A DNA stretch of 13,517 bases from Pseudofrankia asymbiotica (lineage in GTDB: Bacteria; Actinomycetota; Actinomycetes; Frankiales; Frankiaceae). Positions 398 to 8,280 of the stretch are shown here, piece by piece. Position numbers and translations under genes: made by a program. Location of the stretch: contig NZ_MOMC01000017.1 of assembly GCF_001983105.1 (NCBI RefSeq), positions 4,158-17,674 of the forward strand, written 5' to 3'. Position 1 is the first letter of the stretch. Each line of letters begins with the position of its first letter. Below the pieces are notes generated by a model. It had not been told where the DNA came from. It saw nothing but the letters and a program-made list of their open reading frames with translations, and did not search any database.

Positions 398-904
398 GTG
401 CCGCCGCGCAAGCCCCTCCCGTTCGACCCGATCGCCGAGGCGCGACGGCAGTGGTCCGCGCACGGATGGGCGCAGGCCGCCGACGGGATGGCCGCCGTCA
501 CCTCACTGATGCGTGCCCAGCAGATCGTGCTGGCCCGCGTCGACGAGGTGCTGCGGCCGTTCGAGCTGACGTTCGCCCGCTACGAGGTGCTGATGCTGCT
601 GCTGTTCAGCCGCAGCGGCTCGCTCCCGCTCAACCGGATCGGCGTCCGCCTGCAGGTCCACCCGACGAGCGTCACCAGCGCCGTCGACCGGCTCGAGACA
701 CGCGGCCACGTGCGCCGCACCCCACACCCGACCGACCGGCGCGCGATCCTCGCCGAGATCACCGAGGAGGGCCGGGCGACCGCGCTCGCAGCCACCGAGA
801 AGCTCAACGACACCGTCTTCGCGGAGCCCGGACTGCCCGACGGCGGCATCGACACCCTCGTCGGCCTGCTCAACGAGATGCGCCAGGCCGCGGGCGACTT
901 CTAG
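398..904 (+). CDS. MarR-family winged-helix transcriptional regulator
   Basis: A 168-residue cytoplasmic DNA-binding protein, slightly longer than a typical MarR. The likely winged helix-turn-helix covers about residues 60-125. The recognition-helix region is HPTSVTSAVDRLETRG (88-103), followed by the wing RTPHPTDRRAILAEIT (107-122). The wing carries the family's D-x-R (D113, R115). The first 35 residues and the C-terminal helices should form the dimer interface. The start is GTG 398 because GGAG lies nine bases upstream. The gene follows an acyl-CoA mutase; I recall MarR genes beside isobutyryl-CoA mutase genes in Streptomyces, so a link to acyl-CoA metabolism is plausible but unproven. Its last codons lie inside a hairpin that also ends the convergent response-regulator gene. 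The ligand is unknown. Confidence 0.9.
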   Translation: MPPRKPLPFDPIAEARRQWSAHGWAQAADGMAAVTSLMRAQQIVLARVDEVLRPFELTFARYEVLMLLLFSRSGSLPLNRIGVRLQVHPTSVTSAVDRLETRGHVRRTPHPTDRRAILAEITEEGRATALAATEKLNDTVFAEPGLPDGGIDTLVGLLNEMRQAAGDF

Positions 905-934
905 GCACCCAGGTGCCTAGAAGTCGCCCGCGGC
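887..934. terminator. Perfect 23-bp inverted repeat covering both convergent stop codons, probable bidirectional terminator
   Basis: Bases 887-909 are the exact reverse complement of 912-934, leaving a two-base loop (910-911). The left arm contains the MarR stop TAG 902-904 and the right arm contains the response-regulator stop TAG 919-917. Because the arms are identical when each strand is read, both genes end GAC TTC TAG and both proteins end AAGDF. No T-run follows, as is common for GC-rich actinomycete terminators. The structure is certain; the terminator role is inferred from the convergent genes. Confidence 0.85.
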
Positions 935-1798
935 GGGGCGGGCGGCCGAGCCCGCGGCGCCTGGGGTGCCCGGGGTGACGAGACCGGTCTCGTAGGCGAC
1001 GACGACGGCCTGCGCGCGGTCGCGCAGGCGCAGCTTGGCCAGGATGCGGGCGACGTGGGTCTTCACCGTCGCCTCGCTCAGCTGGAAGGCGACGGCGAGC
1101 TCGGCGTTGCTCTGGCCGGTCGCGAGCAGGCGCAGGACCTCCAGCTCCCGCGGGGTGAGCGTGGCCAGGTCGCGGTGGATCGCGCCGGCCTGCCGGCCGG
1201 GGGCGGCGAACCGCTCGACGAGGCGGCGGGTGATCGTCGGGGCGAGCAGCGCGTCGCCGGCGCGCACCAGCCGGACCGCCGCGACGAGCTGCTCGGGCGT
1301 CACGTCCTTGAGGAGGAAGCCGCTCGCGCCGGCGGCCAGCGCCGCGTAGACGTACCGGTCGAGGTCGAACGTCGTCAACATGATCACGCGCGGCGACGCG
1401 TCCGCGCCCGCCAGGATCCGCCGTGCCGCCTCCAGGCCGTCCATCTCGGGCATCCGGATGTCCATGAGCACGACGTCGGGCCTGGTCCGGCGGACCGCCT
1501 CGACGGCGCGCACCCCGTCGGCCGCCTCGGCGACCACCTCGATCCCGTCGGCCGTCAGGATCATCCGGAAGCCCGCCCTTACCAGCGCCTGGTCATCGGC
1601 GATCACCACCCGCGGCCTGGGCGATCCGCCGTCCGGCCTCGACGCCGCGGCGGGGCCGGCCACGTCCACGGCCGACCGCGGGCCCGCGCCGCGTAGCCCG
1701 CCTGGCCCACCCGGGCTGCCTGGCCCACCCGGGCTGCCTGGCCCACCCGGGCTGTCCGGGCTGCCGGCGCTCTCGTCCGTGGGAACGTTCGGGCTCAC
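917..1798 (-). CDS. NarL/LuxR-type two-component response regulator
   Basis: A 293-residue cytoplasmic regulator. The receiver domain covers about residues 63-180, with acidic pair D68/D69, phospho-acceptor D113 (VVLMDIRMPE), T142 and K164. The C-terminal LuxR helix-turn-helix begins at LTPRELEVLRLL and includes SEATVKTHVARILAKL, so the protein should bind DNA when phosphorylated by the adjacent kinase. I chose GTG 1798 because it overlaps the kinase stop in a GTGA junction, the usual sign of translational coupling. This start gives a roughly 60-residue N-terminal extension, rich in Gly/Pro/Ser and containing three tandem GSPGGP units, which family members lack. In-frame GTG codons at residues 44 and 46 would remove most of it, but I see no ribosome binding site there. 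Likely targets are the divergent ABC exporter genes. Confidence 0.92.
   Translation of the reverse strand: MSPNVPTDESAGSPDSPGGPGSPGGPGSPGGPGGLRGAGPRSAVDVAGPAAASRPDGGSPRPRVVIADDQALVRAGFRMILTADGIEVVAEAADGVRAVEAVRRTRPDVVLMDIRMPEMDGLEAARRILAGADASPRVIMLTTFDLDRYVYAALAAGASGFLLKDVTPEQLVAAVRLVRAGDALLAPTITRRLVERFAAPGRQAGAIHRDLATLTPRELEVLRLLATGQSNAELAVAFQLSEATVKTHVARILAKLRLRDRAQAVVVAYETGLVTPGTPGAAGSAARPAAGDF
1701..1754 (-). repeat. Three identical 18-bp repeats encoding GSPGGP units in the response regulator
   Basis: CCTGGCCCACCCGGGCTG (plus strand) begins at 1701, 1719 and 1737 with no differences between copies. Read on the coding strand each copy adds one collagen-like GSPGGP unit to the N-terminal extension. 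The period is a multiple of three, so changes in copy number would keep the reading frame. Confidence 0.95.
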
Positions 1799-3618
1799 GA
1801 GGACGTACTTTTCAGCGAGCCGGGCGCGGCGTCCAGCGGGCCGGCTGGCCCGGCCTCGAGCGGGATCTGGGCGCGGACGCCGAACCCGCCGAGCGGGAGC
1901 CGGCCAGCCCACAGCGAGCCGCCGTAGACGGCGAGCCGCTCCCGCAGGCCGACCAGACCGGCGCCGCCGCCGGATCCGGCGACCGCGGTCGGCCGCCCGC
2001 CGTTGTCGGTCACCTCGAGGCGCAGCTCGGCGGGCCGGCGGTCGACGACGATCCTGACGCGGGCGCCGGAGGCGTGCCTGACGGCGTTGGTCAGTGCCTC
2101 CTGCACCACCCGGAACGCGGCCAGGTCGACGCCGGGCGGCAGCTCCACCGGTGTCCCTGCCTCCACCGGTGTCCCCGTCGTGACCAGCTCGACGTTCACC
2201 CCCGCCGCCCTGACCCTGCCGACCAGCGTCGCCAGCTGGCCGAGGCCGGGTTGGGGCGCGAGGTCGTCGTCCGTCGGACCCGTGGTGCCGTCCGCCGCCG
2301 CCCCGACGGGCGCATGCCACCCAGAGCCGCCCGCCGCGCCGTCGGCGGCGGCTCGGCCGGCACCGGCCGGCGTGGCGGCCACCCCGGCCGCCTCGGAGCC
2401 ATTGCCATCTCTGTCCTCACCATCCTCGCCGCCGCCGGGCAGGCTCGGTCCGGCGGTGGCCGGTGTCTCGGCGTCCGCCATGGTGAGGAGGCCCATCACG
2501 TGGCGCAGCTCGGTCATGGCCGCCCGGCCGCTGCTCTCGACGGCGAGCATCGCCTCCCGAGCCTGGTCCGGCGCCGCGTCCAGGACCTTGCGGGCCGCGC
2601 CGGCCTGGATGATCATCACGCTGACGCTGTGGGTGACCACATCGTGTAGCTCCCGCGCGATGCGGGCCCGTTCCTGCTCGACCGCCCGCCGGCTGGCGGC
2701 CTCCTGCTCCGCGGCGACGACGCTAGCCCGTTGCTGACGCAGGTGGATCGCATTGGCCGCGAGCCCGATGAGGACCAGCACGATGAAGGGCAGGTAGACC
2801 GGCCGGAAGTCGGGGATGTTGTCCTTCGGGAACGCGACTACCTGCGCGGCACCGACCAGGACGCTCGCCACCGCCAGCGCCCGGTGCGGGCTGTAGACGG
2901 CGGCGCTGTAGGCCGCGACCAGCAGTGCGACGAACGTGAACGGGATCGCGTCCTCGACGGTGACGCCCCGGTGGAACGCGACAGTGGCCGCCAGCACCGC
3001 CCAGTAGGCGGCGAGCGGTCGCCAGCGGCGCGCGACCAGCGGCAGCGCGACCAGCACCGCGGCGATCAGCTGCCAGTACGGAACCGCCTCAGGCTGGAGA
3101 TCGAACAGCCACGGCCGCTGAAAGGGATCGCCGTCGGCGGCGTCGGGTGCGTCCGCCGGGTCGTCGGGCAGGTCCGTGGGGCCGGCAGGTACGTCCGTGG
3201 GCCCGGCGGGCGCGTAGGCCGGGCCCACGGGCGCGTAGGCCGGACCGGTGGGCGCGTAGGCCGGACCGGTGGGATCCGCGGCGGCTCCGGGGCGCGCGGT
3301 CACCTGGCCGCCGGAACGGACGGGGTCCGGCGGGGCCGGCCGATCGGGCCGGGCCGGGGGGACCAGCCCGTCAGCCCGCGCCACGGCCGCCGCCGACTGG
3401 GCCGACGGCAACCGCGGGACCACCAGGCTGCCACCGTTGCGCGCGGCGACCAGCGTCGCCGCGACCAGCACGAACGCGAGGATCCCGTCCGCCATCCACG
3501 CCCACGGCGACAGCCGCGCCGGCAGGCCGCCGGCCCCCCGCCAGGGCCCGAGGCCCGGCCACCGCCACCGGACTCCGGCGGCACGCCGCCGGAGTCCGGG
3601 CGGGTCCGTGGTCGTCAT
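1795..3618 (-). CDS. Membrane sensor histidine kinase (HisKA_3 / NarL-partner type)
   Basis: A 607-residue membrane protein that should autophosphorylate and pass phosphate to the regulator encoded next to it. Membrane segments are visible at about 42-60, 182-197, 201-216, 225-242, 246-263 and 273-291. A long Pro/Ala loop (about 64-180) contains three PAYAP repeats. A coiled stretch leads to the HisKA_3 box ERARIARELHDVVTHSV, with phospho-acceptor H325. The ATPase domain has N box QEALTNAVRH (506-515), DNGG (538-541) and GLVGLRERL (555-563). A Gly/Ala/Asp-rich linker (about 383-455) separates the two halves. I chose ATG 3618; the frame is open further upstream, but that part is Arg-rich and unlike coding sequence. 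ATG 3495 is another possible start. A strong hairpin lies in codons 7-17. The stimulus is unknown; the divergent exporter suggests envelope stress or an antimicrobial. Confidence 0.9.
   Translation of the reverse strand: MTTTDPPGLRRRAAGVRWRWPGLGPWRGAGGLPARLSPWAWMADGILAFVLVAATLVAARNGGSLVVPRLPSAQSAAAVARADGLVPPARPDRPAPPDPVRSGGQVTARPGAAADPTGPAYAPTGPAYAPVGPAYAPAGPTDVPAGPTDLPDDPADAPDAADGDPFQRPWLFDLQPEAVPYWQLIAAVLVALPLVARRWRPLAAYWAVLAATVAFHRGVTVEDAIPFTFVALLVAAYSAAVYSPHRALAVASVLVGAAQVVAFPKDNIPDFRPVYLPFIVLVLIGLAANAIHLRQQRASVVAAEQEAASRRAVEQERARIARELHDVVTHSVSVMIIQAGAARKVLDAAPDQAREAMLAVESSGRAAMTELRHVMGLLTMADAETPATAGPSLPGGGEDGEDRDGNGSEAAGVAATPAGAGRAAADGAAGGSGWHAPVGAAADGTTGPTDDDLAPQPGLGQLATLVGRVRAAGVNVELVTTGTPVEAGTPVELPPGVDLAAFRVVQEALTNAVRHASGARVRIVVDRRPAELRLEVTDNGGRPTAVAGSGGGAGLVGLRERLAVYGGSLWAGRLPLGGFGVRAQIPLEAGPAGPLDAAPGSLKSTSS
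3208..3264 (-). repeat. Three-copy 21-bp repeat encoding PAYAP units in the kinase sensor loop
   Basis: The 15-base core GGGCGCGTAGGCCGG occurs at 3208, 3229 and 3250, a 21-base period, with six variable bases between cores. On the coding strand it gives PAYAP followed by TG, VG or AG. It lies in the loop after the first membrane helix, which is predicted to face outward. The divergence between copies suggests it is older than the exact repeats elsewhere in the window. Confidence 0.9.
3568..3599 (-). other. Perfect 14-bp hairpin in the first codons of the histidine kinase
   Basis: Bases 3568-3581 are the exact reverse complement of 3586-3599, with a four-base loop (3582-3585). With the ATG 3618 start it lies at codons 7-17 of the kinase mRNA and encodes PGLRRRAAGVR. 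A stem this GC-rich close to a start codon would be expected to slow translation. It could instead be a leader element if translation begins at ATG 3495. Confidence 0.85.
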
Positions 3619-3798
3619 CGCCGAGATCACCGGCCCGCATCCGTCCGAGCGGACGCCGGCCCGCGCGCGGCCAGGGAGGAGGCCGGCCCGTGTCTGGACG
3701 CGGAGGACGCCGGCCCGCGGTCGGCCAGAAGGAACACCGTCCCAGTGTGGCAAGTCGGCACCCGGTCGGCGTCCGTCCCGGGCGGGAGCGCCGGGCGC

Positions 3799-3822
3799 CG
3801 CGTACATCGGTCGCGTACATCG
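3799..3822. promoter_or_regulatory. Direct repeat CGCGTACATCG x2, possible response-regulator site
   Basis: CGCGTACATCG occurs at 3799-3809 and 3812-3822, a period of 13 bases. It lies about 140 bases upstream of the exporter start and 180 bases upstream of the kinase start. It contains some of the few A/T-richer bases in the gap. A binding role is inferred. Confidence 0.35.
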
Positions 3823-3943
3823 CATGGATGACGCGCGGCCCGGATCGGCCGGCTGGGCGAGCCGGCGTCGCCATCGCGGGCGACGCGCGCCGGCCCGGCC
3901 CGCGCCTAGCGTCCCGTCCGTCGAGATCACCCACCGAAACCAT

Positions 3944-3948
3944 GGAGG
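3944..3948 (+). promoter_or_regulatory. Strong ribosome binding site for the ABC ATPase
   Basis: GGAGG at 3944-3948 lies nine bases before GTG 3958. The ATG at 3942 is out of frame with the gene, so the GTG is the start. Confidence 0.75.
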
Positions 3949-3957
3949 ACGACGGAC

Positions 3958-4857
3958 GTGACCACACCCAGCAGCCCGACCCCAGCCGGGCCGCCCGGCG
4001 CGGCGCCGGCCCAGGGCCGTCCCGAGAGGGCACAGCAGGCCGGCGCCGGCACCTGGACCGCCGCGGGCGATCCCGTCATCGAGGCGCGCGGGCTGACCAA
4101 GGCCTACGGCACCGGGGCGCCGGCGCTGGTGGATGTCTCACTGACGGTGCGGGCCGGTGAGGCGGTGGCGATCGTCGGCCCGTCGGGCAGCGGCAAGTCG
4201 ACCCTGCTCAACCTGATCGCCGGGCTGGACCGGCCGACGGCGGGCAGCGTGACCGTGGGCGGCGAGCGCATCGACCAGATGAGCGAGACCGCGTCGGCCC
4301 GCTACCGGCGGGCCGGCGTCGGCATGGTCTTCCAGTTCTTCAACCTGCTCGACGACCTGACCGTCCTCGACAACATCCTGCTGCCGGCCCAGCTCGCCGG
4401 GCTGGACCGCGCCAGGGCCCGCCAGCGGGCCGCCGACCTGCTGGGCTACCTGGGCATCGCCCGGCACGCCGCGGCCTACCCGGGCCGGCTGTCCGGCGGG
4501 GAGCGCCAGCGGGTCGCCGTCGCCCGCGCCCTGATGAACAGCCCGGCGGTGCTGCTGGCCGACGAGCCGACCGGTGCCCTCGACCGCGGGGCGGCCCGAG
4601 ACGTCCAGCAGCTCCTCGTCGACCTGGGCCGAGAGGGCCTGACGATCGTGCTGGTCACCCACGACATCGCCCTGGCGCGGGCGTGCGCCACCAGGACGGT
4701 CGAGCTGGTCGACGGCGCGGTCGCCCGCGACGTGCTGGTGTCCCGAGGGCTGACACCGACGGGAGACACACCGTTCACCGGTCCTACCGCGCTCACCGGA
4801 CACGCCGGCATCACCGGAGGAACCGCCGCGGCGGGGGACGGGGCGGTGGCCCGGTGA
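3958..4857 (+). CDS. ABC transporter ATP-binding protein, MacB/LolD type
   Basis: A 299-residue cytoplasmic ATPase that powers the permease encoded next. All motifs are intact: Walker A GPSGSGKST (74-82, K80), Q-loop at Q126 in VFQFFNLL, signature LSGGERQ (178-184), Walker B VLLADEP with D202 and E203, and H-loop H235 in LVTHD. The sequence around the Q-loop and the ADEPTGALD stretch are typical of the MacB/LolD/FtsE group, which pairs with FtsX-type permeases. The first 38 residues are a Pro/Ala-rich leader not needed for the fold, and the last 45 are a Thr/Gly-rich tail. The start is GTG 3958 with GGAGG nine bases upstream. The stop overlaps the permease start in a GTGA junction. The substrate cannot be read from the sequence. 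Confidence 0.95.
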   Translation: MTTPSSPTPAGPPGAAPAQGRPERAQQAGAGTWTAAGDPVIEARGLTKAYGTGAPALVDVSLTVRAGEAVAIVGPSGSGKSTLLNLIAGLDRPTAGSVTVGGERIDQMSETASARYRRAGVGMVFQFFNLLDDLTVLDNILLPAQLAGLDRARARQRAADLLGYLGIARHAAAYPGRLSGGERQRVAVARALMNSPAVLLADEPTGALDRGAARDVQQLLVDLGREGLTIVLVTHDIALARACATRTVELVDGAVARDVLVSRGLTPTGDTPFTGPTALTGHAGITGGTAAAGDGAVAR

Positions 4858-7286
4858 GGCTCGGGAGCGGCCGGGCGGCCGCGACGCGCAAGGTGGTGCT
4901 CGGCGGCCTCGGCCGGCGCCGGGCCCAGACGGCGGTCCTCGTCGCCACCGTCCTGACGGCCGTCACCGCGTCGCTGCTCGCCACCGGGCTGCTGGTCGGG
5001 TCCAGTGCCCCGTTCGACCGTGCCTTCTCCCAGCAGCACGGCGCGCACCTGACCGCCGAGGTGGACGCGGCGAAGGCGACGGCCGCCCAGCTGGCGGCCA
5101 CCACGCGGCTCGCGGGCGTCGCGGCCACCGCCGGCCCGTTCCCGATGACGACGGTGCACGCCGACCTCGCCGACGCGCCTGGCGCCGCGGGACCGGACCT
5201 GCCGCCGCTGGCCGTCGTCGGCCGCGACGACCGCGCCGGGCCGGTCGACCGGGTCAGCCTGGTCGACGGCTCCTGGGTCGACCGCCCCGGCGAGATCGTC
5301 CTGGCCGCCAGCCTCGACTTCCGCGTGCCGACCGGCACCCGGCTGGTGGTCCGAGACCTGCCGGGCAGCCCTGAGCTGACGGTGGTGGGCATCGCCCGGT
5401 CGACCAGCCGCACCGCCGACGCCTGGGTGACCTCGGCGCAGCTGTCCGCGCTGACCGCGGCCGGCGGGCAGGCCGGCTACGAGATGCTCTACCGGCTCGA
5501 CGAGGCCGGCACCGCCGCCGCCGTCCACGCCGGGCAGGACGCCGTCGAGGACGCGCTGCCGGACGGCGCGGTCACCGCCACGCGGTCCTACCTGGACCTG
5601 CGGCGGGACGCCAACGCCGTGAGCGCGGCCTATGTCCCGTTCGTCGCGGCCTTCGGGGTGCTCGGGCTGGCGATGTCGACGTTGATCATCTCGATCGTGG
5701 TCAGCGGCGCCGTCGGCGCCGCGCGCTGGCGGATCGGCGTGCTCAAGTCGCTGGGGTTCACGCCCGGGCAGGTCGTGACGGCCTACGCCGCCCAGACGCT
5801 GGCGCCGGCCGCGGTCGGCGTCGGGCTCGGCGTGCTGCTCGGCAACCTGCTCGCCGTACCGGTCCTCGCGGACCAGGCCGACGCGTACGGCGGGCCGGAC
5901 CCGACGATCCCCCTGTGGGTCGACGCGGCGGTCACGGCCGGCGCGCTCGCCCTGGTCGCCGGCGCCGCCGTCGCCTCGGCGAGGCGCGCCGGGCGGATGC
6001 GCACGGTCGAGGCGATCAGCCTCGGCCGTGCCCCGCGGGCCGGCCGGGGCCGGCTCGCCCGGCGTCTGGCCGGCCGGCTGCCGCTGCCCCGCCCGGTCAG
6101 CCTGGGGCTCGCGAACCCGTTCGCCCGGCCCGCGCGGGCGGCGGTGCTGGCCGCCGCCGTCGGCCTGGGCGCGCTCGGCGTCACGTTCGCCGTCGGGCTG
6201 GGCACGACGCTCACCATGATCCAGAAGGAGAACGGCGGCGAGTCGCCCGCGGCCGTCGCCGTCCACCTGGGGCATGCCGGCGGTGAGCCCGGCGGCGGCC
6301 AGCGCGAGGCCGCACCCGGCGAGGCGCCCGGGCCCGGCGGCGGGCCGGCGGGCCCGGAGACCGTCACCGTGGATCCGGCGGCCGTCGCCGCGGCCGTCGC
6401 GGCCCAGCCGGGGACCGCCAGCTACTACGGCCTCGCCCAGACGAGGCTCGGCGTGCGCGGCATGGTCGGCGCGGCCGACGTCAGCGCGCTGACTGGCGAC
6501 CCCGCGGTGGCGGCCCGGCGGCTCATCACCGGGCGCTGGCTCGCGGCGCCCGGTGAGGCCGTCGCCGACACCCGGCTGCTCCGGGCGGCCGGCGCCCGGG
6601 TCGGCGACCAGATCACCGTCACCGACGCCGGGCGCGCCGCGACCGTGCTGGTCGTCGGCGAGGTCTTCGACGGGAACGACGACGCGAACCTGCTGACGAT
6701 GTCGTCGTCCCTGTCCGGACTTCGTCTGGACCTGGCGCCGGAGGAGTTCGGCGTCGACCTGGCGCCCGGGACGGACCTGACGAGCTACCTCCAGGCGGCC
6801 GAGGACGCCCTGGCGCCGCTGGGCGCGGACGCGGAGGCGAACGAGGGCGACGAGTCGACCGTGATCGTGGCGATGATCTCGCTGATCACGACGCTCACCC
6901 TGATGATCGTCGTCGTGGCCGTGCTCGGCGTGCTCAACACGGTGGTGCTCGACACCCGGGAACGCGTCCACGACCTCGGCGTCTTCAAGGCGCTCGGCAT
7001 GACGCCGCGGCAGACCATCGTGATGGTGGTGACGTCGGTCGCCGGGATCGGCGCCGTCGCCGGCCTGGTGGGCGTGCCGCTCGGGATCGGGCTGCACCAC
7101 GCGGTCGTGCCGCTGATGGGCGACGCCATCACGACCGGCATGCCGGCCGCCTACATCGACGTGTACGGCTCGCCGGCACTGGCCGCGCTCGCCGTCGGCG
7201 GTCTGGTCATAGCGGCGGCCGGCGCGATGCTCCCCGCCACCTGGGCCGCCGGAACCCGCACCGCCACCGCCCTGCGCACGGAGTAG
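4854..7286 (+). CDS. ABC transporter permease with two FtsX modules
   Basis: An 810-residue membrane protein, the partner of the preceding ATPase. After TM1 (about 25-48) comes a large extracytoplasmic domain beginning QQHGAHLTAEVD. The first FtsX module is at about 260-382, with three helices and the conserved cytoplasmic loop RIGVLKSLGFTPGQV. A fifth helix at about 425-450 starts a repeat of the same plan: a second extracytoplasmic domain, then the second FtsX module (670-810) with the loop DLGVFKALGMTPRQT. The repeated loop shows internal duplication, as in actinobacterial exporters of this type. A Gly/Pro-rich insert lies after TM5. The start is GTG 4854, overlapping the ATPase stop. Such pairs export lipids or antimicrobials or confer peptide resistance; this one's cargo is unknown. 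A hairpin follows the stop by about 10 bases. Confidence 0.92.
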   Translation: MRLGSGRAAATRKVVLGGLGRRRAQTAVLVATVLTAVTASLLATGLLVGSSAPFDRAFSQQHGAHLTAEVDAAKATAAQLAATTRLAGVAATAGPFPMTTVHADLADAPGAAGPDLPPLAVVGRDDRAGPVDRVSLVDGSWVDRPGEIVLAASLDFRVPTGTRLVVRDLPGSPELTVVGIARSTSRTADAWVTSAQLSALTAAGGQAGYEMLYRLDEAGTAAAVHAGQDAVEDALPDGAVTATRSYLDLRRDANAVSAAYVPFVAAFGVLGLAMSTLIISIVVSGAVGAARWRIGVLKSLGFTPGQVVTAYAAQTLAPAAVGVGLGVLLGNLLAVPVLADQADAYGGPDPTIPLWVDAAVTAGALALVAGAAVASARRAGRMRTVEAISLGRAPRAGRGRLARRLAGRLPLPRPVSLGLANPFARPARAAVLAAAVGLGALGVTFAVGLGTTLTMIQKENGGESPAAVAVHLGHAGGEPGGGQREAAPGEAPGPGGGPAGPETVTVDPAAVAAAVAAQPGTASYYGLAQTRLGVRGMVGAADVSALTGDPAVAARRLITGRWLAAPGEAVADTRLLRAAGARVGDQITVTDAGRAATVLVVGEVFDGNDDANLLTMSSSLSGLRLDLAPEEFGVDLAPGTDLTSYLQAAEDALAPLGADAEANEGDESTVIVAMISLITTLTLMIVVVAVLGVLNTVVLDTRERVHDLGVFKALGMTPRQTIVMVVTSVAGIGAVAGLVGVPLGIGLHHAVVPLMGDAITTGMPAAYIDVYGSPALAALAVGGLVIAAAGAMLPATWAAGTRTATALRTE

Positions 7287-7296
7287 CCGTCACCCG

Positions 7297-7320
7297 GTCG
7301 GGCGCCCAGGGGCGCCCGGC
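7297..7320. terminator. Hairpin immediately after the permease stop
   Basis: GGGCGCCC at 7300-7307 repeats at 7310-7317. The unit is its own reverse complement, so the two copies can pair across a two-base loop, with about three more flanking pairs (one of them G-U). It begins 11 bases after the permease stop. There is no T-run. It is probably the plus-strand terminator or part of a double one. Confidence 0.55.
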
Positions 7321-7336
7321 GGGGTGCGGCCTGGTG

Positions 7337-7386
7337 GCGGGTGGAATCGGGGTCCGGACTGGCAGGTCGACCCCGATTCCACCCGC
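7337..7386. terminator. Perfect 18-bp inverted repeat between convergent permease and cobK, probable bidirectional terminator
   Basis: Bases 7337-7354 are the exact reverse complement of 7369-7386, with a 14-base loop. The repeat lies in the 151-base gap between the permease stop (7286) and the cobK stop (7438), where transcription from both sides must end. Like the hairpin at 887-934, it is long, perfect and lacks a T-run. Confidence 0.8.
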
Positions 7387-7437
7387 GCCGACGAGCCGAC
7401 GCGCAGGCCGACGGGCGCCTGCCTGAAGGGGCGGGTG

Positions 7438-8280
7438 TCAGGTCGAACAGACGGGGGCGCCGGGCGCCTGGTCGTCGGGGCGGTCGGCGCGAGGGCCGGG
7501 GGCGAGCCCGCGCAGCGCCTCGAGGATGCCGGCCACGTCGGGCCAGGTGGGTGGGACCGGGCCGGTCACGGGGGGCCGGTCGACCATGACCACTGGCAGG
7601 CCGAGTGCTCGGGCTGCGTCCAGCTTCGCCGCCGTGAGGCCGCCGCCGCTGTCCTTCGTGACGAGCACCCGGATCCGGTGGTCGCGCAGCAGCCGGGTCT
7701 CGCCGTCGACCGTGTAGGGGCCGCGGTCCAGCAGGACGGTGTGCCGGGGCGGCAGGAGGTCGGTGGGGGGATCGACAGCCCTGATCACGTAGTGGCGGTC
7801 GGGGTCGGCCGCGAAGGGCGCGAGCTGGCGGCGTCCGGTGGTGACGAGGACGGCGGAGCCGGGCGGGCACAGCGCCCTGGCCCGCTCCCCGGCCGCCGCG
7901 AGATCGGGCACGCGGTGCCAGTCGTCGCCGGGACGGCGGGTCCAGCCCGGCCGGGCCAGCCGGAGCAGCGGCACGGCGGCGCCCTCGGCCGAGCGCTCCC
8001 CGCCGGCGCCGTCGGCAGCGCACGCGGCGACGGCGTGCACGGACATCGTCGCGGCGAACGGGTGGGTCGCGTCGACGACGACGTCGATCTCGCGGGCGCG
8101 CAGGAAGGCCCGCAGGCCGGCGACCCCGCCGAAACCGCCGATCACGGTCTCCCCGGCGGGCAGCGCCGGGTCTCGCACCCGCCCCGCCAGCGACGTCGTG
8201 ACCGTGTGGCCCGGTTCGCCGACGAGGGCGGCGGCCAGGTCCCGCGCCTCGCGGGTGCCGCCGAGGATCAGGACACGCAC
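7438..8280 (-). CDS. cobK: Precorrin-6A reductase CobK
   Basis: A 280-residue cytoplasmic enzyme that reduces precorrin-6A to precorrin-6B with NADPH in cobalamin synthesis. The N-terminal nucleotide-binding region begins VRVLILGGTREARD, with GGTREA at 7-12. The family motif VVDATHPFA is at 68-76, VTTGR at 146-150 and VTKDSGG at 207-213, followed by TAAKLDAAR. The length is slightly above the usual figure of about 250 because of a short insert (GAGGERSAEG) and a Pro/Asp-rich tail. I chose GTG 8280 because the Rossmann strand begins at once and the start overlaps the cobM stop by 13 bases, which implies coupling. The frame is open further upstream but that part is cobM read in the wrong frame. 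It is the last gene of cobL-cobM-cobK, the order I recall from mycobacteria. Confidence 0.93.
   Translation of the reverse strand: MRVLILGGTREARDLAAALVGEPGHTVTTSLAGRVRDPALPAGETVIGGFGGVAGLRAFLRAREIDVVVDATHPFAATMSVHAVAACAADGAGGERSAEGAAVPLLRLARPGWTRRPGDDWHRVPDLAAAGERARALCPPGSAVLVTTGRRQLAPFAADPDRHYVIRAVDPPTDLLPPRHTVLLDRGPYTVDGETRLLRDHRIRVLVTKDSGGGLTAAKLDAARALGLPVVMVDRPPVTGPVPPTWPDVAGILEALRGLAPGPRADRPDDQAPGAPVCST

Follow-up and report, generated by a model that had tools for sequence, protein, structure and literature searches.

How do two unrelated proteins, encoded by genes that meet tail to tail, come to end in the same five residues, spelled by the two arms of one perfect palindrome? We addressed this question in a window of 13,517 nucleotides from the Frankia-like soil bacterium Pseudofrankia asymbiotica (genome G000, contig NZ_MOMC01000017.1), the window being the whole stretch of DNA that was analysed. 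Its MarR-family regulator and LuxR-type response regulator genes are convergent, with 12 bases between the stop codons, and the histidine kinase ORF overlaps the response regulator by GTGA (Table 1). Comparative analysis indicates that, very probably, the regulator gene received at its end an inverted copy of the MarR gene's end, which made a perfect hairpin and lent the regulator five terminal residues.

Table 1. Features of the locus and of three further genes compared (window coordinates unless a contig is named)
Feature	Position	Strand	Remarks
MarR-family regulator, 168 aa, probable donor of the copied end	398..904	+	Pfam MarR 1.1e-10
MarR stop codon TAG	902-904	+	
LuxR-type response regulator, 293 aa if read from GTG 1798, probable recipient	917..1798	-	Pfam Response_reg 7.5e-29, GerE
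Response regulator stop codon TAG	919-917	-	
Histidine kinase upstream of response regulator (ORF bounds)	1795..3930	-	Pfam HisKA_3, HATPase_c
Left arm: last 15 coding bases of MarR, TAG, GCACC	887..909	+	GCCGCGGGCGACTTCTAGGCACC
Palindrome centre, two-base spacer CA	910..911		
Right arm: last codons and stop of response regulator, probable inverted copy of MarR end	912..934	-	
Outer stem extension, pairing with 937-940 beyond a 2x2 mismatch	881..884	+	
Outer stem extension, partner of 881-884	937..940	-	
Lipoprotein-like gene	C118:55352		ends QPA in 7/7 genomes with a match (8 searched)
Membrane protein gene convergent with LexA-like gene (names by reading of the sequences)	C79:229405		match in 4/8 genomes
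TetR-like gene	C92:125241		match in 8/8 genomes

A perfect palindrome carries both gene ends

The first-pass annotation described exact reverse complementarity of bases 887-909 and 912-934 around a central CA (910-911), with both proteins ending AAGDF and then TAG, and both descriptions were borne out. Its placement of the hairpin inside both coding sequences was also correct, each arm consisting of 15 coding bases, one gene's TAG and GCACC. The two-base loop that it reported holds for the DNA, where CA is the spacer, and fails for the RNA, where the stem has 22 bp and a 4-nt loop.

In the window, 73 inverted repeats were found; among the 25 listed, these two arms are the longest perfect ones. 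Folding of 81 nt yielded -61.4 and -59.5 kcal/mol for the two strands (z scores of -7.98 and -7.76); each strand folds alone, and none of 200 shuffles folded as well. No Rfam family matched positions 700-1200 at gathering scores. Chance is no reasonable account of the palindrome, as none of 354 dinucleotide-shuffled convergent junctions reached 12-bp arms.

A fold-back assembly or amplification artefact, a possibility that the annotation had raised, would fit two facts: the palindrome is perfect and short, with a spacer of two bases, and the genome is a draft made from short reads. Strain NRRL B-16386 presumably belongs to the proposed genus Pseudofrankia. The Frankia sp. NRRL B-16386 genome comprises 9,435,764 bases in 174 contigs, and the 2 x 250 bp reads at 161.4x coverage published for that assembly would span the 48 bp (PMC5391423). 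The palindrome is moreover embedded between unique flanks collinear with the sister genome G006, and perfect arms of at least 20 bp also occur in G006, which has two contigs, and in the one-contig genomes G001 and G051. Given the collinear flanks and the published read length and coverage, an artefact is very improbable.

Other perfect repeats were recorded in the same genome. A second perfect hairpin, of 18 bp with a 14-nt loop (7337-7354/7369-7386), follows closely on the FtsX-type permease gene (ORF end 7286); it lies in the convergent gap between this gene and a minus-strand CbiJ-like gene (ORF end 7438). A 15-bp perfect palindrome, also with a two-base spacer, sits near the starts of the histidine kinase and a divergent ABC gene (3568-3582/3585-3599). 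A single type of 19-bp palindrome (GTGKCGGATNNGCAAGCC, two-base spacer) occurs three times, at C79 62487-62526 and 62551-62590 and at C120 72316-72355 (contig coordinates), and the arms vary between copies by paired changes.

The shared C-terminus is native to the MarR gene

Alignment of both proteins with their orthologs, which the first-pass annotation had proposed, separated the two genes clearly. All 30 MarR orthologs (own and 29 of the same family) end in AGDF plus stop, 14 of them in AAGDF, versus none of the 12 response-regulator relatives read carrying AAGDF, which marks MarR as the donor and the regulator as the recipient. MarR matches were found in 58 genomes, and the set comprised the best 30, a same-family genome at 71 percent being among those outside it; for the regulator, 13 of 30 fetched loci were read (own and 12).

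Among more distant MarR homologs, AGDF aligned at the same place in 15 of 22, some with extra residues after it. Taken with the 30 orthologs, this indicates that the AGDF sequence is ancestral in MarR. The palindrome, by contrast with this conserved end, is missing in 29 of the 30 orthologs, and an inverted repeat that includes the stop and has arms of at least 10 bp was found only in G000. The longest hairpin near the other MarR ends, 14 bp in G004, starts 36 bases past the last sense codon. Stop codons of the 30 orthologs are TGA in 26 and TAG in four.

The regulator relatives present a different picture. All 12 keep the body of the protein (YETGLVTPG or similar) and then run into differing, freely variable ends, the closest look-alike being AAGHP in G051. 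Because the GerE domain, the last conserved one, ends at residue 268 of 293, the tail of the regulator appears free to change.

Codon spelling further links the copy to its source. The alanine codon before GDF is GCC in 28 MarR orthologs, GCA in one and GCG in one, the last being G000 itself; the right arm carries the spelling GCC-GCG-GGC, found in one of the 30 orthologs, again that of G000. Since the GCG spelling is common to gene and copy, the copy appears to derive from its own lineage's MarR or to have been homogenised with it.

Could selection on the proteins have produced AAGDF at both C-termini, with the palindrome as a consequence? The conservation of AGDF in the MarR group would agree with this, and the lack of AAGDF in every regulator relative read would not. 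The identity of the arms also continues past the stop codon to GCACC, so selection on protein is insufficient, and we consider this explanation scarcely credible. The evidence instead supports the annotation's suggestion that one gene end was duplicated in inverted form and took the place of the other gene's tail, with the direction running from MarR to the response regulator.

Sister genomes suggest that the copy arose in a single lineage

G006 is the only other genome found with the MarR/regulator pair. The two genomes are collinear from a point before MarR as far as the cobalamin genes, a stretch that takes in the regulator, the kinase and the ABC transporter; the first cobalamin gene matches Pfam CbiJ. 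In G006, MarR ends in AAGDF and the regulator in ARPSTL, and the palindrome is absent; the case that would count against replacement, orthologs that both end in AAGDF with no palindrome, was thus not seen. The regulator stop of G006 overlaps the MarR stop in CTAG, and the best perfect short-loop arm there measures 6 bp. In the alignment, eight bases of G006 (AGCGTGGA) stand opposite a 30-base inverted stretch of G000.

G005 and G004 lack the regulator-to-FtsX block, and their match to G000 passes from the end of MarR to the CbiJ-like gene. The regulator-kinase-ABC-FtsX block (window about 907-7500; G000:C79 5064-11657) thus adjoins MarR in G000 and G006 and not in G005 and G004, which identifies the MarR 3' end as a junction of gene gain or loss. 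The CbiJ-like (precorrin-6x reductase-like) gene of G005 ends in SAVA and stops at a CTAG common to MarR. In both G005 and G006, then, the gene newly placed beside MarR ends at the CTAG of MarR itself.

The simplest account of these comparisons would place the copy in the G000 line, after it had left G005 and G006; the polarity evidence comes from one sister, G006. An alternative is that the palindrome predates the split of G000 and G006 and that its centre was deleted in G006, the duplication still running from MarR to the regulator, only earlier. Palindromes are prone to deletion, and by eye AGCGTGGA of G006 matches the outer right arm at five of eight positions, a comparison drawn from a single sister pair. 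This older origin needs one more event, and the MarR codon spelling of the arm, which the other 29 orthologs do not have, would require later homogenisation of both arms. We therefore regard it as improbable and retain a copy made within the G000 line.

Template switching as the probable route

The locus has the form expected of a template switch: a new reverse-complement repeat lies beside an unchanged source, the MarR end being kept in 30 of 30 orthologs and the copy occurring only in G000. From the perfect repeat, the two-base spacer, the unchanged source alongside and the lack of the repeat in relatives, we infer short-range template switching as the route by which the palindrome may have arisen. 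Such switching can create a perfect hairpin in one event (PMC8794818).

During replication, a brief change of template at the MarR 3' end, to the opposite or the nascent strand, could have led the polymerase to write about 18 bases (GCCGCGGGCGACTTC plus TAG) backwards into the end of the convergent regulator gene. This single event would have made the 23-bp perfect palindrome and converted a regulator tail of ARP-STL-stop, as in G006, into ARP-AAGDF-stop. Replacement of the old tail would follow from the copied TAG being in frame with the regulator, presumably an accident of about one in three. Twelve central bases, GCACCCAGGTGC, fall outside the copying account.

Stop-spanning hairpins and matching C-termini elsewhere

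A search for other convergent pairs with matching C-termini, also proposed in the first-pass annotation, revealed that among 273 pairs only the MarR/regulator pair shares five residues; one other pair shares three. These pairs came from parts of four genomes (118 + 49 + 58 + 48), with genes from our own ORF caller.

Of 1077 gene ends in the surveyed parts of G000 and G006, 7 carry a perfect hairpin that spans the stop codon with arms of at least 11 bp; the corresponding counts are 0 among 1074 starts and 1 among 1072 internal places. The seven ends represent six hairpins, the MarR/regulator palindrome being counted from both sides. By genome, the counts were 5 of 773 ends in G000 and 2 of 301 in G006, for which the ORF caller returned 304 or 301 genes between runs. 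No such hairpin was found at 330 ends of G001, of the same genus, or at 321 ends of G051, and the survey gave no sign of the feature beyond the genus.

The scan of convergent junctions in G000 uncovered five further hairpins with arms of at least 10 bp that overlap a coding end; three of them were compared across the genus, the other two being C142:15029 and C92:178710. At the lipoprotein-like gene, the hairpin occurs only in G000, lies over a conserved tail and matches G000's own spelling. At the membrane protein gene, a stop-spanning hairpin is present in G000, a differently spelled and longer one in G006, and none in G005 or G004. Both cases support repeated copying of gene ends, as far as three chosen cases can suggest and with no rate implied.

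Downstream of the end of the G006 membrane protein gene, GAACTCGGCTAG (L253), this end sequence recurs in copies that are inverted and direct by turns (arm 16, spacer 2). These repeats look as if the gene end had been copied more than once.

At the TetR-like gene, a stop-spanning stem of 15, 11, 11, 12 and 12 bp was found in G000, G005, G006, G003 and G001, respectively (loops up to 25; a limit of 10 recovers the G000 stem and misses the other four), and was absent in G004, G002 and G007. A base pair has changed on both sides between G000/G005/G006 and G003/G001, a pattern that supports selection acting on stop-spanning stems. In this stem (L255-L262), the 5' arm is the last coding stretch and the 3' arm follows the TGA.

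A pattern search for GACTTC-stop palindromes returned 82 stretches in genome contigs, and within the family one of 35 genomes, the own one. In 80 of the 82 (L065-L144; ORFs of more than 40 codons on either side), no ORF pair had the same last five residues; a few stretches (for example L071, L124 and L082) share GDF or DF. When MarR was compared with the 82 stretches by tblastn, one weak match emerged, in L126 (37 percent over residues 57-132, at 6928-7152). As that match lies some 260 bases before the pattern, no stretch represents a case at the end of a MarR ortholog. In Microbulbifer, L082 and L100 are convergent, with GACTTCTAG...CTAGAAGTC at both ends, ORFs ending in GDF and RDF, and a best perfect arm of 8-9. 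In a plasmid search, the 20 records listed of 176 cover only the response-regulator part.

A probable bidirectional terminator

The hairpin at the common end of both genes would most likely act as a bidirectional terminator that lacks a U-tract, and a role in ending both transcripts is plausible. A scan for T-runs in 300-2000 found no U-tract terminator-like site, so the element differs from a canonical intrinsic terminator. It does have the features of a bidirectional hairpin without a U-tract, namely a strong stem at a convergent end in a genome where such stems are enriched.

This enrichment was assessed in 1,055,324 bases of G000 with our own ORF caller, not the annotation, and loops were limited to 10. 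Perfect hairpins with arms of at least 12 bp occur at 21 of 118 convergent junctions (0/354 shuffles), in 20 of 436 codirectional gaps (1/1308 shuffles) and in 2 of 73 divergent gaps (0/219 shuffles). At convergent ends in 400 kb each of G006, G001 and G051, for which no shuffles were made, the counts were 12 of 49, 7 of 58 and 12 of 48. These frequencies suggest that stems with no U-tract are an ordinary feature of convergent ends in this set of genomes, with the 887-934 palindrome one of the longest among them. The stems are also gained and lost: of six convergent pairs compared that are syntenic between G000 and G006, just one has long hairpins in both.

Translation bears on how well such a stem could work. 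A trailing ribosome keeps hairpins in coding regions from folding, a spacing of 30 nt or more from the stop is cited, and about 60 percent of predicted termination hairpins fall within 20 bases of the stop (PMC8355165). Because the 5' arm of the palindrome lies inside translated sequence, an efficient terminator is less likely.

The hairpin might alternatively have no function and be a neutral by-product of template switching, tolerated since the regulator tail lies outside the conserved domains. The end of GerE at residue 268 of 293, the free variation of relatives' tails and the absence of a hairpin in G006, which has the same MarR/regulator pair, are all consistent with this. Such hairpins are, however, strongly enriched at convergent ends, and the comparable stem at the TetR-like gene kept its pairing through a two-sided change in five of eight genomes of the genus. 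Lack of function is accordingly a real possibility that we judge doubtful. The joint account, a template-switch copy of the MarR end that now most likely serves as a bidirectional hairpin terminator with no U-tract, we hold with good confidence.

Relation to known systems

The locus resembles the RNA hairpins attributed to template switching by Monttinen and Loytynoja (2022, PMC8794818) in that one event yields a perfect, adjacent, lineage-specific reverse-complement repeat. The new-stem cases taken from that study are mammalian microRNAs and rRNA genes; here the source is a bacterial gene end, and, unlike in those cases, the C-terminus of a neighbouring protein has been overwritten. With template switching between inverted repeats (Abraham and Hazkani-Covo 2021, PMC8604942), it shares the simultaneous change of several neighbouring residues. 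The yeast genes described there had existing arms homogenised and spacers inverted, whereas here a new arm arose and residues passed between proteins.

Bidirectional hairpin terminators (PMC5381666, PMC1852404) likewise consist of a single stem that lies between genes meeting tail to tail and can serve both strands. In contrast to the terminators described there, this stem has no A-tract or U-tract, and its arms are coding sequence holding both stops. Convergent overlaps such as the four-base CTAG (PMC2174442) are matched by the G006 regulator and the G005 precorrin-6x reductase-like gene, and terminators within coding sequence have already been reported for convergent overlapping genes of E. 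coli (PMC2174442). Unlike the overlaps treated in that source, the G000 genes do not overlap; each arm has its own TAG, 12 bases apart, within one stem.

A literature search of titles and abstract openings found no earlier case of a C-terminus common to convergent neighbours. Template-switch hairpins and bidirectional stems are thus known, and transfer of a C-terminus to a convergent neighbour was not found in that search. The locus is a clean natural case of a known type of mutation with an unusual outcome.

Implications for terminators and C-termini

RNA stems in general arise slowly by point mutation (PMC8794818), and given that slowness the origin of long perfect terminator stems is a real question. 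At this locus, birth by a single inverted copy is visible because the source of the arm is conserved coding sequence and hence identifiable. The move of five residues and a stop codon to an unrelated protein illustrates how new C-termini can arise in a way that would escape the usual homology searches.

The stop-spanning hairpins of the survey (7/1077 ends) offer further testable cases of gene-end copying. Tentatively, and at somewhat less than even chances, gene ends in this genus may repeatedly seed their own terminators, template switching placing an inverted copy of the last codons and stop downstream and so yielding a stop-spanning hairpin in one go. If this is true, a close convergent neighbour would gain the copy as a new C-terminus, and the birth of a terminator and C-terminal innovation would be one step.
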